From positions 124,001-188,000 of the forward strand of contig NZ_CP078091.1 of assembly GCF_025917005.1 (NCBI RefSeq): a DNA stretch of 64,000 nucleotides, written 5' to 3'. The DNA is from Porphyrobacter sp. ULC335 (GTDB taxonomy: Bacteria; Pseudomonadota; Alphaproteobacteria; Sphingomonadales; Sphingomonadaceae). Below the pieces are notes generated by a model. That model did no database searches, was not told where the DNA came from, and saw nothing but the letters and a program-made list of their open reading frames with translations. Shown piece by piece: positions 29,177-44,321 of this stretch (positions are counted from its first letter, which is position 1; each line of letters begins with the position of its first letter). The translations under genes and the position numbers were made by a program.

Positions 29177-30775
29177 TCAGCCGCGCTCGACTCCGGTAAC
29201 GGCGTTCCAATCGAGATTGAATTTGGCAAGGTATTTTCGAAGACGGTCGCCGTCATTGGTCGAGCTGCGCTGGCGCCGGGATGCGGCGAACAGACGGCGA
29301 CCAGCGTCCGCAAGGCTCGCGCTCTGGCGGCATACGGAGACGACATAGTCGAGCTGCACCCTATCAAAGGGATCGATTTCTTCTAGCTGCCCGGCAGCGA
29401 ACAACGCCTCAAGACACTGGCGGCCGAGTGTCTCGCCCGCCCACAGCCGTGCCAATCTGGCCGTTTCTGCGGCGACGGTCTCAGCGTCAATGCGGGCGCC
29501 GGGACTGAGTGTCGCCATCCGCGTGACGCTAGCCGCGAGATCCCGGAAATTGCCTGCCCAGCGCGCTGACGGGCCGGTGGCGAAGGCGAGGTAGCGCTCG
29601 CGTGCCTCCTTGTTGAAGGTCACTCGCGTGCCCTCTCTTTCTGCGAAGCGGTCGAGCTCGAAATCGAGGTTGGGTTCGATATCCTCGCGCCGCTCGGCAA
29701 GCCCCGGCAGGGTAAAGGTCCACAGGTTGAGGCGGGCGAAGAGGTCATCGCGAAACGATCCGGCTGCGACTGCGCTGACCAGATCGCGATTGGTGCCGGC
29801 GATGAGCTGGAACTCGCTCTTCGTCTCGCTGTCAGCGCCGACGGGGAGAAATCGCCCATCTTCGATCGCGCGCAGGATCATGGCCTGTTCGTCGAGACCA
29901 AGCTCGCCGATCTCGTCGAGGAACAATACGCCCTTGTTGGCGCTCTTCAGCAGGCCCGGGCGATCCTGCGCGGCGCCGGTGAACGCACCCTTCCTGTGCC
30001 CGAACAGTGCCGACATCGCGCTGTCGCCCTTCAACGTTGCGCAGTTGACCTCGACGAAGGGCCCGCTGACCTGGTGACGCAGCTTCTTCAATTCATAAAC
30101 CTTGCGCGCCAGCTGGCTCTTGCCCGCGCCGGTTGGCCCCATCAGCAGGATGGGTGCGCGGCTTCGCACCGCGACCTGCTCAATCTCCTCGATCATGCGA
30201 TTGAAGGCCGCGTTGCGGGTGTCGATACCGCTCTTGAGAAAGCTGGCGCTCTCCACGCTCGCTTCGGCAAAGCGGGTGGCGATCGAATCGTAGCGCGACA
30301 GATCGAGATCGATTGCGGCCCAGGTCCCCACCGGCTGCGGCACGCCCCGCGCCGGCTGGGTCTGCAGCAGGCGGCCGGGCAGATAACGCGCCTCGGTCAG
30401 CAGGAAGAGGCAGATCTGCGCGACGTGCGTGCCGGTCGTGATGTGGACGAGATAGTCCTGCACCTCGGGATCGAAAGGAAAGCCGCGCGCGAAATCGAGC
30501 AGCTTGCCGTAAACCTCCTCAAAGTCCCAGGCATCAGCAAAGTCCATCACGTGAGGGACGACCTCCGTCTCCGGCGAGACGCTGCGGATATCCTCGGCGA
30601 TGAACTCGGCAAGACGGCTGTGGTAGCTGCCATGGATCAGCACGAAGCGATCGACCCTCAGATCCTCCTGCATGCAAATGCTGACCGTGGGCCGCCACTT
30701 GTTCCAGCGCGAGGGCCCGAACTTGGCGGCATCAAGAGTTGAGCCGAGAAAGCCGATGACGGTCGTAGGTTTCAT
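29177..30775 (-). CDS. rtcR: RtcR, sigma-54 activator of the RNA repair operon
   Basis: A 532-residue RtcR. Residues ~1-180 are the CARF-like sensor domain (VHITTGTHVAQICLFLLTEA). Residues ~185-430 form the AAA+ sigma-54-interacting domain with Walker A GPTGAGKS (213-220), GAFTGA (263-268) and Walker B VLFLDE. The C-terminal ~70 residues contain a Fis-type DNA-binding region (LDYVVSVCRQSASLADAGRRL). RtcR is known to respond to damaged tRNA ends and activate rsr-yrl-rtcBA operons. Here it is divergent from exactly that operon, which has a sigma-54 promoter. Confidence 0.95.
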   Translation of the reverse strand: MKPTTVIGFLGSTLDAAKFGPSRWNKWRPTVSICMQEDLRVDRFVLIHGSYHSRLAEFIAEDIRSVSPETEVVPHVMDFADAWDFEEVYGKLLDFARGFPFDPEVQDYLVHITTGTHVAQICLFLLTEARYLPGRLLQTQPARGVPQPVGTWAAIDLDLSRYDSIATRFAEASVESASFLKSGIDTRNAAFNRMIEEIEQVAVRSRAPILLMGPTGAGKSQLARKVYELKKLRHQVSGPFVEVNCATLKGDSAMSALFGHRKGAFTGAAQDRPGLLKSANKGVLFLDEIGELGLDEQAMILRAIEDGRFLPVGADSETKSEFQLIAGTNRDLVSAVAAGSFRDDLFARLNLWTFTLPGLAERREDIEPNLDFELDRFAEREGTRVTFNKEARERYLAFATGPSARWAGNFRDLAASVTRMATLSPGARIDAETVAAETARLARLWAGETLGRQCLEALFAAGQLEEIDPFDRVQLDYVVSVCRQSASLADAGRRLFAASRRQRSSTNDGDRLRKYLAKFNLDWNAVTGVERG

Positions 30776-30917: not shown

Positions 30918-30934
30918 TTGGCACGCCCCATGCT
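30918..30934 (+). promoter_or_regulatory. Sigma-54 promoter of the rsr-yrl-rtcBA operon
   Basis: TTGGCACGCCCCATGCT fits the -24/-12 consensus (TGGCACG, 4-nt spacer, TTGC/T) with GG and GC exactly 12 bp apart (30920 and 30932). It faces the TROVE gene 112 bp downstream and is divergent from rtcR, whose product is a sigma-54 activator. The leader between promoter and rsr is ~100 nt. Confidence 0.88.
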
Positions 30935-31045: not shown

Positions 31046-32593
31046 ATGGCCAACAAGACGCTCTTTTCTTCGGCGCTCTCGCGCTTCCTGCCGCGAACCG
31101 ACACGGTCAATGAGGCAGGCGGTGTCGCCTATGCTTATGGCCCCGAGGCGCTGCTTGCGCAGCTCGCCGCCACGGGTACGCTTTCGGACGGCTTCTATAC
31201 CGATGCCGAAACGCAGCTCGCCAAGGCGCTTGAGGCAGCGCGCGCGGTTGATCCGCTGTGGGTCGCCAAGTGTGCAGTTTATGCCCGCCAGTCAGGCGCG
31301 ATGAAGGACATGCCGGCGCTGCTCACCGCGGTGCTCTCGACGGCGGACCCGGACCTGATGGTTCCGGTGTTCCGGCGCGTGATCGACAACGGGCGAATGC
31401 TGCGCACTTTCGTGCAGATCATGCGCTCGGGCCAGGCCGGACGGACCTCACTGGGTTCGCGTCCGAAGCGGCTTGTGCGCGAGTGGCTGGAAAACGCCTC
31501 GACCCGCCAGCTGATGCAGGCGGCGACCGGCAATGATCCGAGCTTGGCGGACATCGTCAAGATGGTTCACCCGGCCCCGGCCTCGGCCGAGCGGCGCGCG
31601 TTCTATGGCTGGCTGATCGGCAAGCCCTATGACGTCGCCGCCCTGCCGGCGGAACTCGCGGCGTTCGAAGCATGGAAGGCGGACCGTTCGCGGCCGCTGC
31701 CCGATGTGCCCTTCGAATGGCTGACCGCCTTCGACCTCACGGCCAAGCAATGGGCTGTGCTGGCGGAGCGCATGGGCTGGCAGGCGCTGCGGATGAACCT
31801 CAACACGCTGGCCCGCAAGGGTGCGTTCCAGATCGACGGCGTGACCCAGGCGGTCGCGGCCCGGTTGTCGGACGAGACGGCGATGGCGAAGGTTCGTCCC
31901 GCGCCCTACCAGCTGATGACCGCGCTCGGCCAAGTGGGCGACGGGGTTCCGCTGCTGGTGCAGGCGGCGCTGGAAACGGCGCTCGAAGCCTCGCTGGCGC
32001 GGGTGCCGAAGCTGGAAGGTCATGTCGTGGTGTGTCCGGACGTGTCGGGCTCGATGAGCTCGCCCGCGACCGGGTACCGCAAGGGTGCGACCTCGGTCGT
32101 GCGCTGCATCGACATCGCCGCACTGGTGGCGGCCGCGATGCTGCGGAGCAATCCGCAGACCCGCGTGCTGCCGTTCGAGAACCGCGTCGTGGACGTGAAG
32201 CTTGATCCCAAAGCGCGCGTCGCGGTCAATGCGGCGAAGCTGGCGGCGGTCGGCGGCGGGGGCACCAGCGTGTCGGCGCCGCTCGAACTGCTTAACCGCG
32301 AGAAGGCCAAGGTCGATGTGGTGGTGATTGTGTCGGATAACGAATCCTGGCTCGATCCTTCCCGGCGCGGGGCAACGGCGACGATGAACGAGTGGACCCG
32401 GCTGAAGACCCGTAACCGGCAAGCGAAGCTGATCTGCATCGACATCCAGCCTTACGGCTCGACGCAGGCCAAGGACCGCAAGGACATCATGAATGTCGGT
32501 GGGTTCACCGACGCGGTGTTCGACACGATGGCGCGCTTTGCCAACGGGACGGCGCGCGACTGGGTCGAAGTCGTCAACGAAGTGGAGATTTGA
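31046..32593 (+). CDS. rsr: Rsr, bacterial Ro60 (TROVE and VWA domain protein)
   Basis: A 515-residue Ro60 orthologue. The N-terminal TROVE domain is a ring of HEAT-like repeats (residues ~5-320) that binds Y RNA on the outside and RNA 3' ends in the central hole. The C-terminal VWA domain (~325-515) has a MIDAS motif DVSGSMSS near 332. The start at 31046 has GGAG 8 bp before it. In Deinococcus and Salmonella, Ro60 with Y RNA directs PNPase or acts in RNA repair. Here it is followed directly by four Y-RNA-like genes and rtcBA. Confidence 0.95.
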   Translation: MANKTLFSSALSRFLPRTDTVNEAGGVAYAYGPEALLAQLAATGTLSDGFYTDAETQLAKALEAARAVDPLWVAKCAVYARQSGAMKDMPALLTAVLSTADPDLMVPVFRRVIDNGRMLRTFVQIMRSGQAGRTSLGSRPKRLVREWLENASTRQLMQAATGNDPSLADIVKMVHPAPASAERRAFYGWLIGKPYDVAALPAELAAFEAWKADRSRPLPDVPFEWLTAFDLTAKQWAVLAERMGWQALRMNLNTLARKGAFQIDGVTQAVAARLSDETAMAKVRPAPYQLMTALGQVGDGVPLLVQAALETALEASLARVPKLEGHVVVCPDVSGSMSSPATGYRKGATSVVRCIDIAALVAAAMLRSNPQTRVLPFENRVVDVKLDPKARVAVNAAKLAAVGGGGTSVSAPLELLNREKAKVDVVVIVSDNESWLDPSRRGATATMNEWTRLKTRNRQAKLICIDIQPYGSTQAKDRKDIMNVGGFTDAVFDTMARFANGTARDWVEVVNEVEI

Positions 32594-32605
32594 ATGAATT
32601 GAACA

Positions 32606-32706
32606 GTGCGGTCGCGGCGAATGCCGGGAAGGACTACATCCTGCAACGATGGTGGCTCTCAGCTGAGGGCGCCCGTCTTTCCCGAACCTCGTCGCCGCGA
32701 CCGCAC
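32606..32706 (+). ncRNA. Y-RNA-like RNA, unit 1 (YrlB-like, no tRNA module)
   Basis: The ends form a perfect 15-bp stem (32606-32620 with 32692-32706). The 5' strand runs into the shared box GGCGAATGCCGG (32616-32627) and GGACTACATC; the 3' strand carries AACCTCGTCGCC. The interior has a CTCTCAGCTGAGGG hairpin but no T-arm. The two boxes recur in the next three units and probably form the Ro60-binding helix. It begins 13 nt after the rsr stop. Confidence 0.85.
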
Positions 32707-32715
32707 AAACACAAC

Positions 32716-32893
32716 TTGGGAAATGGTCGGGGCGAATGCCGGTCGGGACTACATCCACCACGAAGAAGGCCCCGTCGGGCAAAGCGCCCCGGTTCCGGCA
32801 ACGGTCCGGGGAGATAGGGTTCAAATCCCTCTTGGAGCAGTAGCTTAAGGGCCGCCGTCTCGACAAATCTTCGTCGCCACGACCTTTTCCCAA
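32716..32893 (+). ncRNA. Y-RNA-like RNA, unit 2 (tRNA-like module opened in the D-loop)
   Basis: The terminal stem 32716-32735/32874-32893 pairs 18 of 20 positions with two isolated mismatches. Shared boxes GGCGAATGCCGG (32731) and CTTCGTCGCC (32869) are present. Interior tRNA-like elements in order: AAGC (32782-32785); a long anticodon-like hairpin with CCCCGG/CCGGGG and a GCAA tetraloop; a T-arm AGGG-TTCAAAT-CCCT (32816-32830); TA; and GCTT (32843-32846), which can pair back with AAGC as a D-stem. The tRNA is thus circularly permuted and opened in the D-loop. The acceptor is shortened. Confidence 0.8.
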
Positions 32894-33032
32894 CTCACGG
32901 CGAATGCCGGAAGGACTACATCGAATGTTAATCGCCTGGTCGCGGGTTCGAATCCCGCCAGGTCCACCAAATGCGGACCTGTAGCTCAGCTGGTAGAGCA
33001 GGAATGTCCTTTCAAACCTTCGTCGCCGAGAG
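32894..33032 (+). ncRNA. Y-RNA-like RNA, unit 3 (permuted tRNA with T-arm, acceptor, ACCA and D-arm)
   Basis: Terminal stem 32894-32903/33023-33032 has nine pairs and one mismatch. Inside is a strikingly intact tRNA elbow in permuted order: T-arm GCGGG-TTCGAAT-CCCGC (32942-32958); acceptor 3' strand CAGGTCC (32959-32965); a loop starting ACCA; acceptor 5' strand GGACCTG (32975-32981), fully complementary over 7 bp; TA; and D-arm GCTC-AGCTGGTA-GAGC (32984-32999). The anticodon arm is the opening. This is the YrlA topology known from Salmonella. A tRNA search may report part of it as a tRNA. Confidence 0.9.
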
Positions 33033-33052
33033 AAGCATTACTTGAACAACAC

Positions 33053-33178
33053 GCTGGCGGATGCCGGCGGGACTACATGGGTAGAGCGTCTGCGAAAGCA
33101 GAAGTTCGGCGGTTCAAGTCCGCCCCCGGGCAACCGGAGTAGCTCAGAAAAACGTCTCGCCACACCCTCGCCGTCGGC
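33053..33178 (+). ncRNA. Y-RNA-like RNA, unit 4 (permuted tRNA with GNRA-capped anticodon and acceptor stems)
   Basis: The terminal stem GCTGGCGG/CCGTCGGC (33053-33060 with 33171-33178) has two G-U pairs and the boxes are more divergent (GGCGGATGCCGG, CCTCGCCGTCGGC). The interior reads GGTAGAGC (3' half of a D-arm), an anticodon stem TCTGC-GAAA-GCAGA (33089-33102), a T-arm GGCGG-TTCAAGT-CCGCC (33108-33124), a mini-acceptor CCGG-GCAA-CCGG (33126-33137), and then AGTAGCTCAG, whose GCTC can pair with the earlier GAGC. The module is therefore opened in the D-loop, unlike unit 3. It ends 27 nt before rtcB. Confidence 0.85.
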
Positions 33179-33205
33179 ACTTTTAAAGCATAACAGGAGG
33201 TCGCG

Positions 33206-34432
33206 ATGACCCGGACGACTTACGAATACCATCAGGCAGAGGGCGGATCGCCGATCAAGATGTGGACGCGCGGCGTGCCTGTCGATGACAAGGCGCGCGA
33301 GCAGCTGGCCCGTGCGGCGCAGATGCCGTTCATCTTCAAGCATGTCGCGGCGATGCCCGATGTGCACGTGGGGATCGGCGCAACCGTGGGCTCGGTGATC
33401 CCGACCAAGGGCGCGGTGATCCCGGCGGCAGTGGGCGTCGATATCGGCTGCGGCATGATGGCGGCGCGCACTTCGCTGGTCGCCAGCGACCTGCCGGATA
33501 ACCTTGCGGCCATCCGCTCGGCGATCGAGGCGGCGGTGCCGCACGGTCGGACGGCGGGGCGTGGCAAGCGCGACAAGGGCGCGTGGGGCGAACCGCCCCG
33601 CGCGGCGGTCGATGCCTGGGCGAAGCTTGCCGAACGGTTCGGCCGGATCGTCGCCAAGCATCCGCGTCTGCGCAACACCAACAACCTGATGCACCTCGGC
33701 ACGCTGGGGACGGGCAACCACTTCGTTGAACTGTGCCTCGACGAGGAACAGCGCGTGTGGGTGATGCTCCACTCCGGCAGCCGCGGAGTGGGCAACGCGA
33801 TCGGCACGTTCTTCATCGAACTCGCCAAGCAGGACATGCGCAAGTGGCATATCAACCTGCCTGATCAGGACCTGGCCTACTTCCCGGAAGGGACCGACCA
33901 TTTCGATGACTATGTCGAGGCGGTCGAATGGGCGCAGGACTTTGCCCGGCTCAACCGGCAGGTGATGATGGCTCATGTGCTGGATGCGGTACGCAGCCAG
34001 ATTGCCAAGCCCTTCGATGCGGAGTGCGAGGCGGTGAACTGCCATCACAACTACGTGACGCGCGAGCATCACTTCGGCGAAAACGTGCTGGTCACCCGCA
34101 AGGGCGCGGTGCGTGCAGCCACGGGCGTGATGGGGATCATTCCGGGCTCGATGGGCGCGAAAAGCTTCATCGTGCGCGGGCTGGGCAACCCCGAAAGCTT
34201 CGACAGCTGCTCGCACGGGGCAGGCCGGGTGATGAGCCGGACCGAGGCGAAGAAGCTGGTGACGCTCGACGAGCACCTCGCCGACACGGCGGGCGTGGAG
34301 TGCCGCAAGGACGCGGGCGTGATCGACGAAACGCCGCGCGCCTACAAGCCGATCGAAGCCGTGATGGCCGCACAGGCCGATCTGGTTGAGATCGTACACA
34401 CGCTGAAGCAGGTGGTGTGCGTGAAGGGGTAA
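33206..34432 (+). CDS. rtcB: RtcB RNA-splicing ligase
   Basis: A 408-residue GTP- and Mn2+-dependent 3'-5' RNA ligase joining 2',3'-cyclic phosphate or 3'-phosphate ends to 5'-OH ends. The metal Cys in GVDIGCGMM is residue 82, and the guanylylated His in CSHGAGR is residue 337, the same number as in E. coli RtcB. HNYVTREHHFG and GTGNHFVEL are intact. A strong AGGAGG ribosome-binding site lies 6 bp upstream. It lies in the sigma-54 operon and would repair RNAs nicked by tRNases or toxins. Confidence 0.96.
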   Translation: MTRTTYEYHQAEGGSPIKMWTRGVPVDDKAREQLARAAQMPFIFKHVAAMPDVHVGIGATVGSVIPTKGAVIPAAVGVDIGCGMMAARTSLVASDLPDNLAAIRSAIEAAVPHGRTAGRGKRDKGAWGEPPRAAVDAWAKLAERFGRIVAKHPRLRNTNNLMHLGTLGTGNHFVELCLDEEQRVWVMLHSGSRGVGNAIGTFFIELAKQDMRKWHINLPDQDLAYFPEGTDHFDDYVEAVEWAQDFARLNRQVMMAHVLDAVRSQIAKPFDAECEAVNCHHNYVTREHHFGENVLVTRKGAVRAATGVMGIIPGSMGAKSFIVRGLGNPESFDSCSHGAGRVMSRTEAKKLVTLDEHLADTAGVECRKDAGVIDETPRAYKPIEAVMAAQADLVEIVHTLKQVVCVKG

Positions 34433-34473: not shown

Positions 34474-35490
34474 ATGATCACCATCGACGGCTCAGAAGGC
34501 GAAGGCGGGGGGCAGGTGCTGCGTTATGCGGCGGCGCTCTCGCTGCTGACCGGGGAGCCTTTCACCATTGCCAAGATCCGTGGCGGGCGGGCCAAGCCCG
34601 GCCTGATGCGCCAACACGTCACGGCCATCGAGGCGGCGGCAGCGGTTGGCTCGGCGGAGTGCTCGGGCCTCGCTGTCGGCTCCACCGAGCTGACCTTCCG
34701 TCCCGGCGCGGTCATGCCCGGCGAATACCACTTCGCCATCGGCACTGCCGGCAGCACCGCGCTGGTGGTGCAGACCGTGCTCGTTCCGCTGATGCTGGCG
34801 GACGCGCCCTCGCGCATCGTGATCGAGGGCGGGACTCACGCGGCCTCGGCCCCGCCGTTCGAGTTTCTCGCCCACACCCTGCTCCCGGTGCTCGCCCGCA
34901 TGGGTCCGCGCCTGTCGGTGACGTTGGAGCGTCACGGCTTCTTCCCGCGCGGCGGGGGGCGGATCGTGCTGGAGATTGCGCCTGCGCCGCTCGCGCCCAT
35001 CGCATGTATCGAACGCGGCGCGTTTCGAAGTGGCAAGGTCGAGGCATTGATCGCAGGCATCCCCTTCGACATCGCCGACCGCGAGCTGAAGGCCGCGCGC
35101 AAGGTGCTGGCCGATTGGCCCGAGGACGCCTTTGGCCCGGTCCAGCTACCCGCCGACCACGGTCCCGGCAACGCGCTTCTGATCACGGCGGAATGCGACC
35201 ACGTGACCGAGGTGATGTCCGCCTTTGGCCAGATCGGCATTCCGGCCGAGCGCCTTGCCAAGACCGCCGCCAAGCGGATGGCGGGCTACCTTGCCTCCGG
35301 CGCGTTCGCCGGGCCGTACTTGCAGGACCAGCTGCTGCTGCCCTTCGCAATGGCAGGCGCGGGGGCGTTCACGACAGTCAAGCTGTCCGAACACACCCGC
35401 ACCGCTGCGGCGCTGATCGCACGCTTCACCGGGCGTGAGTTTGCCTTCAACGAGGATGCCGAGGGGCGGTTGCTGGCGAGCCTCGGGTAA
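34474..35490 (+). CDS. rtcA: RNA 3'-terminal phosphate cyclase
   Basis: A 338-residue RtcA converting RNA 3'-phosphates to 2',3'-cyclic phosphates with ATP, generating RtcB substrates. GSEGEGGGQVLRYAAALS opens the protein, HGFFPRGGGRIVLEI is the signature stretch, and the C-terminal LSEHTRTAAALIARF carries the adenylated His. The start at 34474 (MITIDGSEGEGG) is family-typical; the ribosome-binding site AGAAAG is weak. It is 41 bp downstream of rtcB in the same operon and convergent with prfH. Confidence 0.95.
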   Translation: MITIDGSEGEGGGQVLRYAAALSLLTGEPFTIAKIRGGRAKPGLMRQHVTAIEAAAAVGSAECSGLAVGSTELTFRPGAVMPGEYHFAIGTAGSTALVVQTVLVPLMLADAPSRIVIEGGTHAASAPPFEFLAHTLLPVLARMGPRLSVTLERHGFFPRGGGRIVLEIAPAPLAPIACIERGAFRSGKVEALIAGIPFDIADRELKAARKVLADWPEDAFGPVQLPADHGPGNALLITAECDHVTEVMSAFGQIGIPAERLAKTAAKRMAGYLASGAFAGPYLQDQLLLPFAMAGAGAFTTVKLSEHTRTAAALIARFTGREFAFNEDAEGRLLASLG

Positions 35491-35516: not shown

Positions 35517-36137
35517 TCACGCCTTCAGCTTGAAGGCAGGGCCGGCATAGACCCGCACCGCATTGCCGCGCTCGAGCTCCTGATGGGCCTGCCATTGGGA
35601 TCGGCGCGCATCGCAGAGCGCCTGCCCACGCCGTTCCTCCAGCATGATCGCGAGCTTCAGCCGCGCCAACTTGCGGTTGGCGTGCTGGGATCGCTGCTCT
35701 TGCGCCGTGGCGACAAGACCGGTGGGCAGGTGTGTCGCCCGCACCGCGCTGTCGGTCTTGTTGACATGCTGGCCGCCCGGCCCGCTCGCGCGCATGGCCT
35801 GATAGGCGACGTCGTGCTCCCCCAGATCGGGGACGGCATCGGGCTGCGGAGCCAGCGCCACGCCGACAAACCAGTTGCGGCGCTTGTGCCCTGGACGCTG
35901 GGGACTGGTGCCGATCCACTGGTTGGTGCCGACCCGCTCCATAGCAAAGGCGGACGCTCCCTCGCCCAGAATGCGCAGCAGGACGGAGGCTGGCAACGCC
36001 TCGGCCCCGTCGAGCACTTCGGCCTCCAGCCCGCTATCCCGCGCCTCCCGCGCAAAGGTGCGCGCCAGCTGCGCGACGACCCAGCGGCATTCCTGCGGGC
36101 CCTTGCCTGCCGTGATGTGAAGGATCACCTCAGCCAT
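35517..36137 (-). CDS. prfH: Peptide chain release factor homologue PrfH
   Basis: A 206-residue PrfH, a class I release-factor relative with the catalytic loop SGPGGQHVNK (GGQ at ~121-123) and a basic C-terminal helix, but without the codon-recognition domains of RF1/RF2. Published work shows PrfH rescues ribosomes with a cleaved decoding centre and works with its RtcB partner to religate the 16S rRNA. The start overlaps the RtcB2 gene by 8 bp. Convergent with rtcA (26 bp apart). Confidence 0.95.
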   Translation of the reverse strand: MAEVILHITAGKGPQECRWVVAQLARTFAREARDSGLEAEVLDGAEALPASVLLRILGEGASAFAMERVGTNQWIGTSPQRPGHKRRNWFVGVALAPQPDAVPDLGEHDVAYQAMRASGPGGQHVNKTDSAVRATHLPTGLVATAQEQRSQHANRKLARLKLAIMLEERRGQALCDARRSQWQAHQELERGNAVRVYAGPAFKLKA

Positions 36138-37248
36138 GCCGCCCCCTCGTCTTGTAGCTGAGCAGCGGGCGCAGCTGCGCGATCACACGGATCAGGCCCG
36201 CCTGCTCCAGATCGGCGATCACCATGGCGATGTCCTTGTAGGCATCGGGTGCCTCCTCGAAGATCAGGCGGCGGTCTTCGCAGATCACATGGCTGCCGAG
36301 CCCGGTGCGCTGCATGTCCGCCACGCTGAAGCGGCGCGAGAGGCGGGCGTGAGCGTCCTTGCGGCTCCATTTGCGGCCCGCACCATGCGCGAGCGAATGC
36401 AGCGCATGGTCGGCGTGATCGGCGAGCGGCTCGACCAGATAGCTGAAATCCCCGCGCGAGCCCGGGATTGTCACCAGACCACGGTCCGCAGGTGCAGCGC
36501 CCTTGCGGTGCAGCCAGCCGCCCTGATGTGGGGTCACGCTGTTGTGGCAGATATCCAGCACCTGCCTGCCATTCATGCCGAGGCACTCGAAAAAGCGCGT
36601 CGCAATGATCGCGCGGTTGACGATCCCCCACTGTAGAGCCGCATCGTGATCGGCGAGATAGGCTTGGGCTTCGGGGGTGTGGGCGATGATTCCGTGGGAG
36701 ATGTCGGCCTGCCGATGCGCCTGCTGCACGGCCTGACCCAACCCGCGCGAGCCGCTATGGACCATCATCCACACCCGGTCGTGCCGAAGCCCAAGCGCCG
36801 CAAAGCGGCCCTCGTCCGGGACCTGTTCGATCCGCAGGAATTCGACAAAGTGGTTGCCGCCGCCAATTGTGCCGATTGCCGGACTTGCAAGATCAGGCGA
36901 CAATCCGGCATCGGCCAGGGCGGCTCTCGCGTCGCCCGACCACGGCTCGTCCAGCCCCCGCAACTTGCGTTCGGCCGCAGCCAGCCTGAACTTGCGGACG
37001 AGACTATCAGTCTCCCACAGACCCATGCCGCAGCCGATGTCGCTTCCGACCAGATGCGGCCAGATCCGATCCGGCGACCAGAAGGCTGCACCAACGGCGA
37101 TGCCGTTTCCGGCGTGCAGATCCGGCAGACCCACAACACGCGCCATCCCTTCATAGCCTGCCGTTTTTTCAAGCTGGTCGACGGCAAGGGGATCGAAGCG
37201 CCGGTGGTCGGTCGCGATCAGAGTGATCGGGCTCATGTCGTCACGCAT
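36130..37248 (-). CDS. RtcB-family RNA ligase paired with PrfH (RtcB2)
   Basis: A 372-residue RtcB paralogue of the PrfH-associated clade. The metal-binding GSDIGCGMG has its Cys near residue 73, the nucleotide His is in AHGAGRKWSR, and HAGNGIAVG, GNHFVEFLR and VHSGSRGLG are present. The start at 37248 is fixed by a GGGGGAGG box 6 bp upstream; a longer frame to 37329 is ignored. It differs strongly from the RtcB at 33,206, so two non-redundant ligases exist. It is coupled to prfH and to a small upstream ORF. Confidence 0.93.
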   Translation of the reverse strand: MRDDMSPITLIATDHRRFDPLAVDQLEKTAGYEGMARVVGLPDLHAGNGIAVGAAFWSPDRIWPHLVGSDIGCGMGLWETDSLVRKFRLAAAERKLRGLDEPWSGDARAALADAGLSPDLASPAIGTIGGGNHFVEFLRIEQVPDEGRFAALGLRHDRVWMMVHSGSRGLGQAVQQAHRQADISHGIIAHTPEAQAYLADHDAALQWGIVNRAIIATRFFECLGMNGRQVLDICHNSVTPHQGGWLHRKGAAPADRGLVTIPGSRGDFSYLVEPLADHADHALHSLAHGAGRKWSRKDAHARLSRRFSVADMQRTGLGSHVICEDRRLIFEEAPDAYKDIAMVIADLEQAGLIRVIAQLRPLLSYKTRGRHG

Positions 37249-37375
37249 GGCGAGCCTCCCCCGGATGAGGATAGGCCGTGACGGCAACGACATTCGAAAT
37301 ATTGAGAAAGTGGGCGGCTTCAATGCCACCTACAGCAATCAGGCGATAGCTATCGCCCTTGAGAGAATTGCCCAT
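37241..37375 (-). CDS. Small ORF (44 aa) overlapping the RtcB2 start
   Basis: MGNSLKGDSYRLIAVGGIEA continues with AHFLNISNVVAVTAYPHPGE and ends ARHA. The composition is protein-like and the stop overlaps the RtcB2 start by 8 bp, the same overlap seen between RtcB2 and prfH. An AGGAACAG box precedes it. A second frame with a stronger AAAGGAG box (33 aa, 37,339-37,440) overlaps it upstream, so this may be one gene split by a frameshift or two leader peptides. No family recognised. Confidence 0.45.
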   Translation of the reverse strand: MGNSLKGDSYRLIAVGGIEAAHFLNISNVVAVTAYPHPGEARHA

Positions 37376-37901: not shown

Positions 37902-38132
37902 CAAATATTCATCTGACCACGCCATCCGGCATTCCCGCGGACCCATGGGAATGATCGGGATCCGGGGCGGCAGAGCTTTCATTTCAAAGGGATGGGAACG
38001 CGATATCGCGCCTCGCCAAAGCACCTGCAGGACGAGGGACATTGCAAATGGCCCCTCGGACAAAACAGACCATTTGCTAAACCGAAACGATTTGCCATTA
38101 GGAACAAGCGCATAGCCAATTCGGGGGCCCGC

Positions 38133-39536
38133 TTGGTACTATCTCTGCAGAAGATCGAGCAAATGGCACCTGACCAAGGCTCTCTTGCAGCGGCGAAGAA
38201 GCTGCTCAAGCCATCGCTCTGGCCGTCCTTGCAGGAAAATGGCGAGGGGCTGGTTTGGGGGGAATGCCAGGGCTCTGGTGCCACGCCCTACCGGATCGCC
38301 GTGACGGAGGCGGATGCAGGGTACAAGTGCACCTGCCCGAGCCGGAAGTTCCCGTGCAAGCACACTCTCGCGCTGATGTGGATGCGCGCCGACAACCGCG
38401 CCCCCTTTTCGACAGGCACGCCGCCCCAATGGGTCAATGACTGGCTGGGACGGAGGCGCGGGCCAACGCCGGGCGCAGCCGCGCCCAAGGCGGCCGAGCC
38501 TGCCGCCGACCGCCCTTCGATCGCAGCAGTGGTCGACGATGCGGCGCCCGTGCCGGATGCCGAAGCGGAAGCGCGGGCCGAGGCGCAGCGTGCGCGCAAC
38601 CGTGCGCAGCGCGAAAGTCTTATCGCCGAGGGCATTGGCGCGATGGAGCAATGGATCACCGATCAGCTTGAGCGCGGGCTGGCAGGGTTCGATCAGCGTG
38701 CCGCGCAGGACTGTGCCACACTCGCCAAGCGACTGGTCGACGCCAAGGCGGGCGGGCTCGCGAACCGCATCGCCGCGCTGCCTGCCGCGCTGTTCCGGGT
38801 GCCCGAGGACGAGCGCCCGCAAGTTGCCGCTCGCGCTCTGGCTGCCGCCTATCTCATCGGGCAAGCCTATACCCGGCAGGACAATCTGCCAGATCTGCTC
38901 AGGGCCGATGTCCGCCAGACCGTGGGTTGGAACCTGACGCGCGAGGCCTTGCTGGCGGACGCAAGCCTGCTGCGCGTCGATGGGCAATGGCGGGTACTGG
39001 CGGCGCGCGACGAAGTGCAACCCGATCGCCTGCGCCGGATCGAGACCTGGCTGCGGACTGATGCCGCAGGCGGGCATTGCGCCGTGCTGATCGACTTCAT
39101 CCCGGTCAGCGGCGGAGCGACGGGGAACCTGTATGTGCCGGGCGAGGTGCTGGACGCCGAACTGGTCTATTACCCCTCTCCCGTCCCCTTGCGCGCTCAG
39201 ATCATCGCCCATCGGGGCACGCGGGCCGCAGCGGACAGTTGGGCGGGCGAACATAACTCGCTTCCCGATGCCATCGACGCATGGCGTGGGGCGCTCGCCC
39301 GCAAGCCGTGGCTCGATACCTATCCGCTCGCCGCGTCGCAGGTGCGGGTACGCGCGGCCGGTGACCGCCTTTATGCCTGCGCAGGTGATCTCGCCCTGCC
39401 GCTCGCCGCGGCCAGTGACGAGGCGGCGCGGCCGCTCTGTACGGTCGATGCAATCAGCCTGTTCGGGTTGTGGGACGGGCGCGAATTGACGCCGTTGCTG
39501 GCGGAGACAGCGCTCGGCGAGTGGGTCGCACCGTGA
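38133..39536 (+). CDS. SWIM zinc-finger protein
   Basis: A ~467-residue protein with a SWIM motif CTCPSRKFPCKH (CxC-xn-CxH) near residues 66-77 and a Glu/Ala/Arg-rich helix after a Pro/Ala linker. The start is uncertain: TTG 38133 keeps the family-like LQKIEQMAPD lead-in, and ATG 38163 is the next choice. It is first of five genes whose stops and starts mostly overlap. SWIM fingers bind nucleic acids or proteins, and this type regularly sits beside DUF5691, MoxR, DUF5682 and VWA genes. Confidence 0.85.
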   Translation: MVLSLQKIEQMAPDQGSLAAAKKLLKPSLWPSLQENGEGLVWGECQGSGATPYRIAVTEADAGYKCTCPSRKFPCKHTLALMWMRADNRAPFSTGTPPQWVNDWLGRRRGPTPGAAAPKAAEPAADRPSIAAVVDDAAPVPDAEAEARAEAQRARNRAQRESLIAEGIGAMEQWITDQLERGLAGFDQRAAQDCATLAKRLVDAKAGGLANRIAALPAALFRVPEDERPQVAARALAAAYLIGQAYTRQDNLPDLLRADVRQTVGWNLTREALLADASLLRVDGQWRVLAARDEVQPDRLRRIETWLRTDAAGGHCAVLIDFIPVSGGATGNLYVPGEVLDAELVYYPSPVPLRAQIIAHRGTRAAADSWAGEHNSLPDAIDAWRGALARKPWLDTYPLAASQVRVRAAGDRLYACAGDLALPLAAASDEAARPLCTVDAISLFGLWDGRELTPLLAETALGEWVAP

Positions 39537-40943
39537 CGCCAGCCGCGATCCTCGACGCTCTGATGCAAGGGACCGGGCGCCGCCCGCTCCAGCCCGCTGG
39601 CGTGCTGGGGGAGGGGCTCGATGCGGGGTCGGACAACACACCCGCGCGAATGCTCGCGCTCGCCGTCCACGCGCATCTTTACGACCTGCCCGCGTCGCCT
39701 GAGCGTTTCGAAGAATCTGCCGCTGCTACCCGCGATGAGCGCCCGATCGTGCCCGAGGATGTGCGGCCGCTGATCGTGAAGCTGGTAACCGGCAAGGGCA
39801 ACTTGACCGACGATCCGGCGGCGCTGGCTCTGGCGCAGAGCCTCGATCGCCACGGCTACCGGCTCCATCCCTTCGATGTCCCGCGCCTCGCAACTTTCGT
39901 GCGCAAGCATGCGGACCTCCTCGGCATCGCACTGGCCGAAGCGGAGGGTGAAACCGGCAATCACTGGACGAGCTGGGAAACCCTCGATGAGAGCACCTGG
40001 ATGCTCGCCACACCGGCGCACAAGGCCAATTTCATCGCCGATCTGCGCCTGAGCGACCCGGCAAAGGCGCGTGCTCTCGTCGAGGCGCAATTGCCGCTCG
40101 AAAAGGCCGAAGTGAGGCTGCGCCTGATAGATGCTCTGGGCGCGGGGCTGAGCACCGATGATCGCCCCCTGCTGGAAAGCCTGGCGGGGGACCGCGCACC
40201 CACAGTCAAACGCGCGGTGACCCGGCTTCTGGCGCGACTTCCCGGCACTGGCGCGGCCGAGGCGCAGATTGCCGAGCTGCTGTCGCGGATCACACGGGGC
40301 AGCGCGGGACTTCTGCGCAAGCGCGTCACCCTGACCCTGCAAATGCCCGCCAACGTCAAATCGGCCACCGCCGAGACCGATTGGCTGGCGTCCAGTTTCG
40401 GGGGGGGTTGGCTGCTCTGCACTGGCTCAGGCATTCGGGATGACGCCCGCGGCGATGGTTGATGCCGCGCAACTTGATGCCCGCTTGATACGCGGGATCG
40501 CCTTTTCGGCCTGTGCCGAGCGCAACTGGCCGGTGCTTTCGGATATCTGCAATGGCCATGGGCCAGAGGTCTGGACCGCGTTTCTCCAAACCGGTCTTGC
40601 CAACTTCGGCCTCGTCACCCCTCGCGAACGGCTGGATTGGGCAAGCGCAGCCATTCGGGCGCAGCCGGGCCATTCGGGGCATGATCCGTTCCAGATTGTG
40701 GCGCTGCACCGCGCCATGGAGGGCCCTTTGCCGCTGGCACAGGCCCGCGCGATCTTTCAAGCCGCGACCCGATCGCGCCACATCACATCCGAAATGCTTA
40801 CCGCCGCCGTTGCCTTGATGCCCGACGGCGGCCTCGAAGAGGTCAGCCTCATGCTCGGACAGATGCCCCCTGACATAGCCGGGCGCGTGCAACTGCTCGC
40901 CAACATCCTCATACGTCTCAAGGAAGGACCTCGCCCGTCATGA
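39533..40943 (+). pseudogene. DUF5691 family protein, split by a +1 frameshift in a G8 run
   Basis: Two adjacent frames (39533-40462 and 40440-40943) together form one DUF5691 protein. The first runs to WLASSFGG and then leaves the family sequence. The second frame, read upstream of its ATG, continues GCSALAQAFGMTPAAMVDAA. They join if the run of eight G at 40,400-40,407 has seven, giving exactly 470 codons. GTG start 39533 overlaps the SWIM stop (GTGA), and the last stop overlaps the MoxR start. The cause is slippage in nature, phase variation or sequencing error. Confidence 0.85.
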
Positions 40944-42022
40944 CCAACCCTCGCCTGCGCCATAGCGCCGAAGACATCTATGCTGCCGAGCTGGACGCGC
41001 TGAAGCGCGACGATGACCGGCAGCGCCCGGCCAATTGGGCGATGTCGCCGCAGGCCGTGGTCGATTACATCATGGGCGGCACCGCCAGGGATGGCACCCA
41101 GATCAGCGCCAAGTACGTCGGCAACCGCCGCCTGATCGAAACAGCCGTGGCTACGCTGGCGACCGACCGCGCGTTGCTGCTGCTGGGCCTGCCCGGAACC
41201 GCCAAGTCGTGGGTATCCGAACACCTCGCCGCCGCGGTTTCCGGCACGTCCAACCGCGTGATCCAATGCACCGCGGGCACCGACGAGAACCAGATCCGCT
41301 ATGGTTGGAACTACGCGCTGCTGCTCGCCAAAGGACCGAGCCACGAGGCGCTGGTGCGCACCCCGCTGATGCGGGCGATGCAGGATGGCACACTGGTCCG
41401 CCTTGAGGAACTGACCCGCATGGGATCGGACGTGCAGGACACCCTGATCACGGTGCTGTCGGAAAAGATGATGCCGATCCCCGAGCTTGACGATGCGGTG
41501 CACGCGCGGCCCGGTTTCAATGTGATTGCCACCGCAAACAACCGCGACAAGGGCGTGAACGAGCTGTCCTCCGCACTCAAGCGGCGGTTCAACGTGGTGG
41601 TGCTGCCGCCCCCGGCGACGATCGACGAGGAGACCGAGATTGTCACCCGCCGCGTCCGGGAGATCGGAACGAACCTCTCGCTCCCGCCCGTCGCTCCGGC
41701 AGACAAGGAGATTGCCCGGATCGTCATGCTGTTCCGTGAGCTGCGCTCTGGCCAGACGCTTGACGGCAAGCTGCGCCTCAAGACCGTCAGCGGTTCTCTG
41801 TCGACCGCCGAGGCGATCTCGGTGGGGATCAGCGCATGGGCGGAAGCGGCGCATTTCGGCAATGGCGCGATCGATGCGTCGGCGATGGCGGCCAACCTGG
41901 TCGGCGCGATCGTCAAGGACCCGGGAGCCGACACGCTGGCGCTGGAGGAGTATCTCGAGAACGTGGTGCGCAAGCGCGATGGCTGGAAGGATCTCTACGG
42001 CGCGATCCGGGATGTGATGTAA
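40940..42022 (+). CDS. MoxR-like AAA+ ATPase
   Basis: A 360-residue AAA+ ATPase. Walker A LLGLPGTAKSWVSE lies near residue 80, a Walker B-like segment is TLVRLEELTRMG, and the sensor/arginine region IATANNRDKGVNELSSALKRRF follows, with a C-terminal helical lid. It overlaps the DUF5691 stop by 4 bp. MoxR ATPases generally work with VWA-domain proteins as chaperones or remodelers, and the VWA partner is two genes downstream. Confidence 0.93.
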   Translation: MTNPRLRHSAEDIYAAELDALKRDDDRQRPANWAMSPQAVVDYIMGGTARDGTQISAKYVGNRRLIETAVATLATDRALLLLGLPGTAKSWVSEHLAAAVSGTSNRVIQCTAGTDENQIRYGWNYALLLAKGPSHEALVRTPLMRAMQDGTLVRLEELTRMGSDVQDTLITVLSEKMMPIPELDDAVHARPGFNVIATANNRDKGVNELSSALKRRFNVVVLPPPATIDEETEIVTRRVREIGTNLSLPPVAPADKEIARIVMLFRELRSGQTLDGKLRLKTVSGSLSTAEAISVGISAWAEAAHFGNGAIDASAMAANLVGAIVKDPGADTLALEEYLENVVRKRDGWKDLYGAIRDVM

Positions 42023-42029
42023 GCCGAGG

Positions 42030-44321
42030 ATGGACTCGCGCGCGCATCTTTTCGGCATCCGCCACCATGGGCCGGGCTCGGCAGCGAGCCTAGTCGCGGC
42101 GCTCGATGCGCTCGATCCGGCGCTGGTGCTGATCGAGGGCGCGCCCGAGGCCGAGCCGCTGGCCGGATATGCCGCGCTTGCCGGAATGCAGCCGCCGCTG
42201 GCGATCCTGCATTATCAGGCAGATGATCCCGCCAATGCGATCTTCGCGCCTTTCGCGGAGTATTCGCCAGAGTGGCAGGCGATACGCTGGGCGCTCGCAC
42301 GCGGTCGACCAATCCGTTTCATCGACTGGCCTGCCGCGCATGCCCTCGCTTATGGCAAGGAGCAGGATACGCCACCGCCGGAGGGGGACGGCGATGAGCA
42401 AGATACCCCCCCTGAACCGGTCCCGCCGCCAACCTATTCCGACCCGCTCGATATGCTCGCGGCGGTCGCGGGCTACTCCGATGGCGAGGCGTGGTGGAAC
42501 GCCCTAGTCGAAAGTAGCCAGCCGGGCGCGGCGATGTTTGCTGCGATCGAGGCGGCCATCACCGAACTGCGCGGCGCAAGCGAGGCGGAAGGTGGCATTA
42601 GCCCGCAGCGCGAGGCGCGCGACAGGGTCCGCGAAGCCTTTATGCGGTTGGCTCTGCGTGCTGCGCTCAAGGACGAGCCGGGCGACATCGCGGTCGTGGT
42701 CGGCGCGTGGCATGTCCCTGCCCTGCGCGCCAAGGTGCCGCAGGCCGAGGACAAGGCGGCCATCCGTGCGTTGGAGAAGGTGAAGGTAGAATCCGCCTGG
42801 GTGCCCTGGAGCGACTCACGGCTTGCTTCGGCATCGGGGTACGGCGCGGGGGTGACGGCGCCGGGCTGGTATCGCCACCTTTGGCAGCTTCAGGGCGAGA
42901 GCGAGGCGATCTCGCCTGAAGCTTTCGCCGCCGGGTGGCAATCGCGCGTGTCGGGCCTGCTGCGCGAGGAAGGCCATGCGGTCGCCTCGGCCTCGACCAT
43001 CGAGGCCTCGCGGCTGGCCATCACGCTCGCCGCACTGCGCGGGGAGGCGACACCGGGGCTCGCCGATATGCACGATGCAACCCTCGCAGCGCTGTGTCAC
43101 GGCGACGAGATCGCCTACCGCCTGATCGAGCGCCGGCTCCTGTTCGGCGAGCGGGTGGGTGCTGTCGATCCGGCGGTGCCGCAGATGCCGCTCGCGGCGG
43201 ATCTCGAGCGCTGGCAGAAGCGCTGCCGGTTAAAGCCCGAGGATCTCGAGCGCGAAATCGCGCTCGACCTGCGCACGGAGGCCGGGTTGATGAAATCGAC
43301 CCTGCTGCACAGGTTGGCGCTGATCAACGTGCCTTGGGGCCGGCTGCTCGATGCCGAGGCCGGGCGCGGCACGTTTCGCCAGACCTGGCGCCTCGCGTGG
43401 AACCCGGGCCTCGCAGTCAATCTTGCGGAGGCGCTGGTCTATGGTGTCACCATCGAACAGGCCGCCGCGGGCAGGACGATGGCGCAGAGCCATGACACCA
43501 ATGACGTCGCGGTCCTCGCTGGGCTGGTCAAGGCCGCCCTGCTCGCCGACCTGCCCGACGCCGCCGAGCAGTGCATCACCCGGCTCCAGGCCGCCGCGGT
43601 CGGCAGCGGCGATCTGGTGCAACTGATGGATACAGTCCCCACGCTGGTCTCAATTCTGCGCTATGGCACCGCCCGCCCGATCCCGTCCGAGCAATTGAGC
43701 GCGCTCGTCTCGGCATTGGCGGCGGAGATCAATGCGGGGGCGCAGGCCGCGGCGGTGGATATCGAACCCGCTGCGGCCGAGGCCATGCGCCGGGCGATGG
43801 CGGGCTACGACCGCGCGTTGGCACTCCATGACGAGGCGCATCTCACCGAAATGTGGCACCGTGAGCTGGCCGCCATCGTCCAGCATGATCGCAGCGCGCC
43901 GGCGGTCGCAGGCCTCGCGCTGCGATTGCTGCACGACGGGCAAGTGTGGGAGGTCGAGCGCATCGCGGCCGGTTTTTCCCGGGCGCTTACCCCGCCCGCA
44001 CCTCCGGCGGCGGCGGGTGCGTTCGTCGAAAGCTTTCTGGCGGGCGGCGCGGAGGTGCTGATCCAAGATCGCCCCCTGCTCGCCGCGCTCGACACGTGGC
44101 TGGCCGAGCTCGATTCCGAGAGCTTCATCGAGTTGCTGCCGATGCTTCGGCGCGGGTTCAGCGGCTTTGCCGAGACAGGGCGCCAACGCATCATCGGGAT
44201 CATCGGCAGCGGCACAGTCGCCGCAGCCAGCGGCCCCGGCGCGCAGGACAACGATGCTTCGCCCGCCTTCATCGCCGAAGCGCTGCCGCTGCTGCGCACC
44301 ATCATGGGGATCACGCCATGA
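42030..44321 (+). CDS. DUF5682 family protein
   Basis: A 763-residue protein. The conserved N-terminus HLFGIRHHGPGSAASLVAAL with VLIEGAPEAE resembles the TraB/ChaN-like fold, in which His and Glu residues could bind metal; this is an inference. The remainder is Ala/Leu-rich helical repeat. It overlaps the VWA gene by 4 bp. Family members are found only with MoxR/VWA/SWIM partners as far as I know. No enzymatic activity is established. Confidence 0.88.
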   Translation: MDSRAHLFGIRHHGPGSAASLVAALDALDPALVLIEGAPEAEPLAGYAALAGMQPPLAILHYQADDPANAIFAPFAEYSPEWQAIRWALARGRPIRFIDWPAAHALAYGKEQDTPPPEGDGDEQDTPPEPVPPPTYSDPLDMLAAVAGYSDGEAWWNALVESSQPGAAMFAAIEAAITELRGASEAEGGISPQREARDRVREAFMRLALRAALKDEPGDIAVVVGAWHVPALRAKVPQAEDKAAIRALEKVKVESAWVPWSDSRLASASGYGAGVTAPGWYRHLWQLQGESEAISPEAFAAGWQSRVSGLLREEGHAVASASTIEASRLAITLAALRGEATPGLADMHDATLAALCHGDEIAYRLIERRLLFGERVGAVDPAVPQMPLAADLERWQKRCRLKPEDLEREIALDLRTEAGLMKSTLLHRLALINVPWGRLLDAEAGRGTFRQTWRLAWNPGLAVNLAEALVYGVTIEQAAAGRTMAQSHDTNDVAVLAGLVKAALLADLPDAAEQCITRLQAAAVGSGDLVQLMDTVPTLVSILRYGTARPIPSEQLSALVSALAAEINAGAQAAAVDIEPAAAEAMRRAMAGYDRALALHDEAHLTEMWHRELAAIVQHDRSAPAVAGLALRLLHDGQVWEVERIAAGFSRALTPPAPPAAAGAFVESFLAGGAEVLIQDRPLLAALDTWLAELDSESFIELLPMLRRGFSGFAETGRQRIIGIIGSGTVAAASGPGAQDNDASPAFIAEALPLLRTIMGITP

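Follow-up and report, generated by a model that had tools for sequence, protein, structure and literature searches.

In the bacterium Porphyrobacter sp. ULC335, the 612-bp spacer that separates the stop codon of rsr from the start codon of rtcB carries four tandem units that, judged from their sequence, are predicted bacterial Y RNAs in the broad sense. The predicted bodies of units 2, 3, and 4 are made of tRNA parts in unusual strand orders, with at least two different orders represented; comparison with relatives backs this prediction well for units 3 and 4, and less well for unit 2. The spacer occupies positions 32594-33205 of the window, by which we mean the whole 64,000-nt stretch that was analyzed (assembly GCF_025917005.1, contig NZ_CP078091.1, positions 124,001 to 188,000 of the forward strand).

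The four units and their relatives

A sequence-only reading of this DNA had described four tandem Y-RNA-like units filling the spacer completely. We recovered the four units (32606-33178) together with the terminal stems that it assigned to them, which, counted outward from the GCGA/UCGC core, comprise 15/15, 18/20, and 9/10 pairs in units 1 to 3, and 8 bp with two G-U in unit 4; units 2 and 3 likewise abut without a spacer (32893/32894). To call the spacer fully occupied was too strong, as the units cover 544 of the 612 bp and leave 12, 9, 20, and 27 nt outside. All four lie beside rsr and have their ends paired as a stem with GCGAAUGC and UCGUCGC-type boxes; the boxes of unit 4 are GCGGAUGC at its start and CCGUCGGC at its end. 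Folding z-scores for units 1 to 4 were -6.7, -2.6, -2.3, and -3.2.

A search of the spacer with Y RNA covariance models, which the same reading had suggested, gave a divided result. Unit 3 scored 73.5 bits with the Rfam YrlA model (RF02553), above the gathering cut-off of 69, and a genome-wide scan with this model found no other site passing that cut-off. Units 1, 2, and 4 fell under every Rfam Y RNA cut-off: units 1 and 4 reached 24.3 bits each with YrlA, unit 1 reached 22.3 bits with YrlB (RF02565; gathering cut-off, 97), and unit 2 yielded no YrlA or YrlB match listed to E = 10. Because these three are below the gathering cut-off, they were not filed as YrlA; the order T arm, acceptor, D arm, by which YrlA is recognized, was found in unit 3 only. 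The earlier placement of Y-RNA-like units in an rsr-rtcB operon is supported by the YrlA match of unit 3, by the Pfam matches of the rtc genes, and by the likeness of the window's Rsr to the solved structure 2NVO. Among other models, permuted tmRNA (RF04321) gave 27.1 bits on unit 3 (cut-off, 47), and RF00005 gave 24.6 bits over unit 4 (cut-off, 29) while taking Y-stem bases as acceptor. An ARAGORN scan of the window found no tRNA gene in normal order.

Relatives were collected by scanning genome contigs with the window's Rsr, which returned 45 loci (by title, 40 Sphingomonadales, three Lysobacter-type, one Myxococcales, and one deltaproteobacterium). Because they were found by likeness to that Rsr, these loci are biased towards its kin; the closest Rsr, from an Erythrobacteraceae genome, is 94% identical. 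The 46 loci, window included, hold 187 units, which we sorted by the order of their tRNA landmarks. Class A (66 units and three doubtful ones) has T arm, acceptor, and D arm; class B (28 units) has 3' D half, anticodon-position stem, T arm, acceptor, and 5' D half; class C (38 units and two doubtful ones) is like B with another acceptor layout; class M (33 units) has a T arm and no D arm; and class N (12 units and five without a recognized 3' box) has no T arm. The window array has one unit each of classes N, C, A, and B. Assignment was scripted, after which six units were placed by hand and one by a default rule, and a reassignment rule enlarged class B from 24 to 28. Alignments were made of 27 of the 28 class B units (A1; L038.3 is identical to L026.3), 38 of the 40 class C units (A2), and 27 of the 33 class M units (A3). 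Pairs changed on both sides are present in all three, in agreement with the covarying stems proposed from the sequence alone. The shuffle tests reported below ignore relatedness; unique regions were used in the tests of X-Y pairing, anticodon-type loops, and GNRA loops.

Unit 3 has all the parts of a tRNA

Read 5' to 3', unit 3 consists of Y stems, CGA, AUGUUAA, UCGCC, UGGUC, the T arm, CAGGUCC-ACCA, AAUGC, GGACCUG, the D arm, A, GG, and Y stems. In tRNA numbering, these segments are 29-31, loop 32-38, 39-43, variable 44-48, the T arm, acceptor 66-72, and 73-76, followed by a linker, 1-7, the D arm from 8, 26, and 27-28. Unit 3 is thus a predicted circularly permuted tRNA, opened in the anticodon stem between 28 and 29, with the Y stem inserted at the opening. 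By complementarity it has a 7-bp acceptor, the D stem GCUC/GAGC, a 5-bp T stem, a 5-nt variable loop, NCCA, and a 5-bp anticodon stem formed as 3 + 2 bp across the opening, with a 7-nt loop carrying U33 and A37. The unconstrained fold contains the 7-nt loop on CGA/UCG, the pairing CCUG/CAGG, the T arm, and the acceptor. In a comparison that took in 40 of the 41 tRNAs of its own genome, the best score of unit 3 was 97, with tRNA-Met(CAU) taken as two joined copies; a single copy gave 54, and shuffled sequences reached at most 35.

The plan of unit 3 is found in 27 of the 69 class A units (unit 3 and 26 relatives), and all 27 sequences are distinct. The outer pairs 27-28/42-43 are present in 27 of 27, as GG/CC in 17 and GC/GC in 10. 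The acceptor has seven pairs in 24 of these units, six in two, and five in one, and the variable loop measures 5 nt in 21 and 4 nt in six. NCCA stands exactly at 73-76 in 18 of the 27, and in five units the acceptor strands are separated by merely 4 nt. A description of class A as a Y stem replacing the anticodon arm was considered and rejected, since 27 of 69 units keep the anticodon stem-loop, merely split.

Two observations on this plan stand apart. The linker from CCA to the acceptor 5' strand is ~30-41 nt long in unit 3 of L001, L006, L007, and L039, as against ~5 nt in most CCA-bearing relatives. Elsewhere in the Porphyrobacter genome, a tandem tRNA Met/Pro junction (C1:1993714-1993830, minus strand) gives a weak YrlA match of 29.4 bits, below the cut-off, which suggests how permuted tRNAs could arise.

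A second predicted strand order in units 4 and 2

Units 2 and 4 follow the order 3' D half, anticodon-position arm, T arm, acceptor part, 5' D half. Unit 4 is predicted to be a D-loop-opened tRNA whose anticodon loop is replaced by a GNRA tetraloop. From 27 class B sequences, and with no structure as input, RNAalifold predicted both Y stems, a D stem of 4 bp that closes a multiloop, stems of 5 bp each at the anticodon position and in the T arm, and an acceptor stem of 4 bp. In the class B structure 99.3% of cells pair, compared with 30-53% for slid structures, and 12 pairs changed on both sides, compared with 4.3 in shuffled alignments (0/500). The nearest own tRNA of unit 4 was that for Phe (55; shuffled maximum, 27.5), a label that, like all nearest-tRNA labels here, comes from one genome's tRNAs and is weak as an identity. 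Joining two tRNA copies raised the score by a mean of 25.7 in class A, 8.1 in B, 1.8 in M, and 0.2 in C.

The class B order recurs, read by eye, in arrays found with a covariance model of this class (described below): with a GCGC/GCGC D stem in L115 and L116, and also with a long variable arm and halves resembling those of tRNA-Leu, GGUAGACGC and GUGGCGGAA. Against Leu, the Leu-like bodies scored 42.5 in L115 and 50 in L116 (shuffled maxima, 33 and 34.5); L120 looks Leu-like by eye, and the tRNA comparison did not support it (30.5, best Lys, shuffled maximum 30). The anticodon-position loop was scored as GNRA by script in 17 of 28 class B units, and one was scored as a 7-nt loop. A looser GNRA test on unique segments was positive in 13/23 for B, 23/31 for C, and 5/19 for M, where shuffled means were 0.7, 2.1, and 0.1 and maxima 4, 10, and 1. 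For 24 of 38 class C units, a scripted search for loops in the anticodon arm detected no simple hairpin.

The reading of unit 2 is the weakest part of the analysis. A pattern search was used to locate the D-stem strands of class C, which pair in all 39 readable units (L033.1, which lacks the GUAGC landmark, was left out of the count) and covary, as AAGC/GCUU in 30, GAGC/GCUC in seven, GAGC/GCUU in one, and AUGC/GCAU in one. The outer helix of the class varies as well (GGCCC/GGGCC in 16, GGUCC/GGACC in 10, and others), these being the best stems in two short windows and control-free. A probable acceptor strand, X, comes directly after ACUACA and is often followed by CCA; a strand complementary to it, Y, lies between the T arm and the 5' D half. 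Pairing of X with Y would cross the D stem, giving unit 2 a non-circular order and a pseudoknotted acceptor. An unrestricted test of this pairing (longest stem anywhere, 38 rows) was not significant, at 8.55 versus 8.27 shuffled (maximum, 9.26). A register-limited test, of the 10 nt after ACUAC against the last 8 nt before GUAGC, gave 7.84 versus 6.37 shuffled (standard deviation, 0.25; 31 unique pairs; 0/2000), with pairing of just 3-6 bp. Since the limited test was designed after the unrestricted one, we call the pseudoknot of unit 2 probable. The comparison with own tRNAs was uninformative for this unit (30 versus 28 shuffled). Without X-Y pairing, unit 2 would be a D-loop-opened body like unit 4, and for this reason we claim at least two orders.

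Several results weigh against these structures. The canonical D stem is missing from the single-sequence minimum free energy (MFE) structure of unit 3, and the 27 sequences that share its plan are related by a descent that the shuffles ignore. In the MFE structures of units 2, 3, and 4, each folded alone, the D-arm strands take other partners, and the D stem shows no both-side change inside the class B alignment. Joining two copies of tRNA-Phe brought hardly any gain for unit 4 (55 versus 50.5); as a single copy already scores 50.5, the order proposed for this unit rests on the place of the 5' D half, not on the score. In unit 2, the D stem and X-Y pairing are both absent from the single-sequence MFE structure and from the RNAalifold structure of 38 class C sequences.

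Anticodon-type loops

Unit 1 reads as an anticodon-type hairpin on a Y stem, and its predicted loop carries the triplet GCA; that of unit 3 carries GUU. We examined 72 unique 5' regions of classes A and N for hairpins of three or more Watson-Crick pairs whose 7-nt loop has U33 and A37. Such a hairpin was present in 33 of the 72 (shuffled mean, 0.77; maximum, 4); three of the 33 are the T loop itself, and 30 remain. The length of 7 is specific, with 33 matches versus 0-1 for loops of 4-6 and 8-10 nt, and U33/A37 occurs in 33 of the 44 class A/N hairpins that have a 7-nt loop. The stems vary on both sides (AUC/GAU, CGA/UCG, GGA/UCC, GGC/GCC, CGU/ACG, CAC/GUG, AGA/UCU, ACC/GGU, and AAC/GUU). Positions 34-36 vary while U33 and A37 stay constant, the triplets being GUC, GUU, UGU, UCU, UCA, GCA, UGC, UCC, GCC, GCU, GCG, GAU, CUU, CCA, AUU, and AUC. 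Such constancy of loop size and of U33 and A37, beside a triplet free to vary, is the pattern that would be expected of a set of anticodon-loop mimics.

The same test was positive in 3/33 regions of class C, 0/22 of B, and 3/24 of M (shuffled means, 0.2-0.3; maxima, 3). Nine loci have two anticodon-type loops, each time with different triplets; these cases are too few to carry weight. The fixed-length test was devised after a free search for the best 5' hairpin, which found a 7-nt loop in 23 of 85 regions and no hairpin in 14, a mixed result because longer stems with G-U were preferred.

Distribution of the arrays

The 41 Sphingomonadales loci, window included, have three units in four cases, four in 17, five in 18, and six in one; the remaining locus (L029) ends at rsr. 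L013 stops before rtcB and already has four units. With three to six units in 40 of 41 loci, four is ordinary in this group, and the earlier description of the window array as an expanded family does not hold: such numbers are the usual state of the spacer in the Sphingomonadales loci collected here and not peculiar to this genome. The five units without a recognized 3' box were kept in class N, and dropping them leaves the Sphingomonadales counts at three to six.

A covariance model of class B (R1) was used to search for further arrays. It matched at E ≤ 1e-6 in 15 of 296 genomes of the order, own genome included, and the distribution is therefore patchy. In the phylum it led to arrays L115 (six plausible units), L116 (seven), L117 (five), and L120 (five), where plausible units are rows judged by eye not to resemble protein-coding sequence. 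The phylum tally of 67/398 was rejected as a count of Y RNA arrays, as weak matches (~30-40 bits) include ordinary tRNA genes; such genes lay behind all three weak loci that were read by eye (L062, L063, and L065). A viral scan returned one weak partial relative, of 29 residues (L126).

Two features of individual arrays were also recorded. Unit 5 of L003, L005, and L007-L010 is short, with a T arm, a long GCAA-closed acceptor-like stem, and no D arm. In the spacers of L040 and L042, both Lysobacter-type, a stretch resembling an open reading frame (ORF) was seen by eye among the Y RNA units.

Locus and neighboring genes

The best solved relative of the window's Rsr, 2NVO, matches at 7.7e-14 over residues 18-502 and is the Rsr of D. 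radiodurans. The rsr product had no Pfam TROVE match at 1e-3, and with the NCBIfam Rsr model it scored 71.9 bits, under the cut-off of 900. A motif similar to the sigma-54-type element that precedes rsr is present in 36 of 46 loci. Features are listed in Table 1.

Table 1. Predicted RNA units, their parts, and the genes of the operon (window positions)
Feature	Position	Strand	Description or support
rtcR	29177..30775	-	Divergent regulator; Pfam RtcR 5.3e-80, Sigma54_activat 2.7e-49
-24/-12 element	30920..30933	+	Sigma-54-type, GG-N10-GC, upstream of rsr; sequence
rsr	31046..32593	+	Ro60 orthologue; Pfam vWA_Ro60 8.9e-17; best solved relative 2NVO
Unit 1	32606..32706	+	Y-RNA-like, 15-bp terminal stem, no T arm; class N
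Unit 1, hairpin	32637..32651	+	CAUC-CUGCAAC-GAUG, 7-nt loop, U33/A37 frame, triplet GCA; unconstrained MFE
Unit 2	32716..32893	+	Y-RNA-like, predicted D-loop-opened tRNA-like body; class C
Unit 2, element X	32754..32760	+	UCCACCA, probably acceptor 3' strand + CCA
Unit 2, 3' strand of D stem	32782..32786	+	AAGC + G
Unit 2, anticodon-position arm	32787..32811	+	Capped by GCAA (GNRA); MFE, class-wide GNRA test
Unit 2, T arm	32816..32830	+	
Unit 2, element Y	32833..32838	+	UGGAGC, probable 5' strand of the acceptor; its UGGA is complementary to UCCA in X
Unit 2, 5' part of D arm	32840..32848	+	GUAGCUUAA
Unit 3	32894..33032	+	YrlA (RF02553), body with all parts of a predicted permuted tRNA; class A
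Unit 3, upper anticodon stem and loop	32922..32934	+	CGA-AUGUUAA-UCG, triplet GUU; positions 29-41
Unit 3, 42-43 and variable loop	32935..32943	+	CC, UGGUC, first two T-stem bases
Unit 3, T arm	32942..32958	+	
Unit 3, acceptor 3' strand	32959..32969	+	CAGGUCC + ACCA; positions 66-76
Unit 3, acceptor 5' strand	32975..32981	+	GGACCUG, 7 bp with 3' strand
Unit 3, D arm	32982..32999	+	GG at 33001-33002 = positions 27-28
Unit 4	33053..33178	+	Y-RNA-like, predicted D-loop-opened permuted tRNA; class B
Unit 4, 3' part of D arm	33080..33087	+	GGUAGAGC
Unit 4, anticodon-position stem	33089..33102	+	GAAA tetraloop
Unit 4, T arm	33108..33124	+	
Unit 4, acceptor stem	33126..33137	+	Closed by GCAA
Unit 4, 5' part of D arm	33140..33147	+	UAGCUCAG; 3' of T and acceptor arms
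rtcB	33206..34432	+	Pfam 2.6e-130
rtcA	34474..35490	+	Pfam RTC 1.5e-71

Adjoining rtcA is a second RNA-repair module, on the minus strand, in which two genes overlap: prfH (35517-36137; TIGR03072, 211.4 bits, cut-off 166.65) and a second, release-factor-associated rtcB (36130-37329; TIGR03073, 408.9 bits, cut-off 271.8). One published study reportedly concerns an RtcB2-PrfH operon and colicin E3 (PMC9223846). Further on, SWIM zinc finger, DUF5691, and MoxR-type AAA proteins are encoded in a row on the plus strand (37992-42022 and on), with an ORF of 763 amino acids (42030-44321) just after them; taken together, they resemble a MoxR-type system located next to the RNA-repair genes.

Possible functions of the array

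All functional readings of the array are ones that we infer. Published homologues of RtcR bind 5' tRNA fragments with a cyclic phosphate, inducing the operon. By extension from them, RtcR would sense such fragments in this organism and the sigma-54 promoter would fire, so that tRNA cutting would lead to production of the units along with Rsr, RtcB, and RtcA. Rsr, again by analogy with homologues, would bind the conserved base stem of the units. Their tRNA-like bodies, with different anticodon-type loops or none, might then compete with real tRNAs for tRNA-cleaving nucleases and keep such nucleases, or tRNA fragments, close to Rsr and the repair enzymes. We tentatively favor this proposal, that the units act as tRNA stand-ins, or decoys, made with the repair proteins during tRNA cutting; the GNRA-capped units 2 and 4 would fit as general tRNA-body decoys or handles. 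It agrees with a suggestion in PMC7790460, where the tRNA-like domain of YrlA is raised as a possible competitive inhibitor of an anticodon nuclease. A wider version is rather unlikely in full: that the repair operons of Sphingomonadales and some other Proteobacteria encode a repertoire of permuted tRNAs bound by Ro, with at least three different places of opening (anticodon, anticodon stem, and D-loop) and copied from several tRNA identities, whose U33/A37 loops would be decoys for tRNA-cutting toxins, with a triplet evolving like a specificity site.

Three points count against the decoy proposal. According to the same paper (PMC7790460), YrlA fragments were undetected when tRNAs were cut, and cleavage of the bait itself is therefore not supported there. 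Units 2 and 4 have no anticodon loop, so a single role against anticodon nucleases cannot explain the whole array. By the test used here, one or more anticodon-type loops occur in only 30 of 46 loci.

Possible, if doubtful, is that no nuclease is decoyed and each body is a handle that brings a tRNA-binding enzyme, or PNPase, to the Rsr ring, yielding Ro ribonucleoproteins of differing specificity. Tethering of Rsr to PNPase by a Y RNA has been reported for D. radiodurans, as has the use of YrlA as a substrate by DusA and TruB (PMC7790460, PMC4726728, and PMC8394870), and bodies without an anticodon loop suit a handle as well as a decoy; what tethering fails to predict is the kept 7-nt U33/A37 loop with a variable triplet in classes A and N. 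That loop, with NCCA, is also left unexplained by a model in which the bodies do no more than obstruct or adjust the Rsr cavity, their likeness to tRNA being a structural convenience. We consider this model improbable; in its favor, Y RNAs are described as regulators of access to Rsr (PMC4726728).

In another reading, unit 3 would be a permuted tRNA gene whose acceptor loop is cut by tRNA-end-processing enzymes; the product would be a tRNA, tethered to the Y stem, whose genuine CCA end allows charging or modification. The 7-bp acceptor, ACCA at 73-76, and 5-nt linker of unit 3, and the NCCA of 18 of the 27 units of its plan, speak for such processing; its absence at that place in nine of 27, the five units with 4 nt between acceptor strands, and the GCAA closing the acceptor of unit 4 speak against it, and we hold it to be quite unlikely. 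The bodies might instead be captured pieces of tRNA junctions, drifting without selection while the Y stem is what matters. They do vary a great deal from species to species, and the tandem tRNA junction of the own genome noted above is a weak match to the YrlA model. Such neutral debris is already disfavored, and we think it very improbable, in view of the both-side changes in classes B, C, and M, the 27/27 outer pairs, and the constraint on loop length and on U33/A37.

Relation to known systems and significance

In circularly permuted tRNA genes, the 3' half lies upstream of the 5' half, with a short linker across the acceptor. The units differ from these in that the opening would lie inside the anticodon stem or the D-loop, with the Y stem there, and they are predicted RNAs only. 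Y RNAs with a permuted tRNA domain are already known: the YrlA domain is one circular permutation, and the YrlA structure 6CU1 has been described by ARTEMIS as a circularly permuted superposition on tRNA (PMC11472068). Like YrlA (RF02553; 6CU1), unit 3 lies beside rsr, has the base stem with the two boxes described above, follows the order T arm, acceptor, D arm, and passes the model cut-off. It differs in the Rfam alignment, where a short stem in the place of the anticodon stem runs into the Y stem; the anticodon-type hairpin of unit 3 is an insertion outside the YrlA model. In units 2 and 4, unlike YrlA, the D arm is split around the body, an order outside the model. The CAUC/GAUG hairpin of unit 1 is present in the YrlB consensus (RF02565), with a loop of six model positions as against the 7-nt CUNNNAC loop of unit 1, which is below the YrlB cut-off.

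The rsr-yrlBA-rtcBA operon of Salmonella resembles the present locus in gene content, RtcR, and sigma-54 control (PMC7790460, PMC9879122), and has two Y RNAs, versus four here and three to six in Sphingomonadales loci. If X pairs with Y, unit 2 would share a non-circular strand order with viral tRNA-like structures of the turnip yellow mosaic virus type (PMC11472068); it differs in being a predicted bacterial Y RNA and in the shortness of its putative X-Y pairing. Y RNAs opened in the D-loop, a whole tRNA with an anticodon-type loop inside a Y RNA, and loops with a variable triplet were undescribed in the literature searched, which did not include the main bacterial Y RNA papers.

Three of the four predicted RNAs in this spacer go unnoticed when Rfam cut-offs and a tRNA finder are applied. 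If our predictions are true, a single small-RNA scaffold has taken up tRNA in at least two strand orders, and if the operon has several tRNA mimics with different openings and loops, the role of Y RNAs in RNA-repair operons becomes testable.

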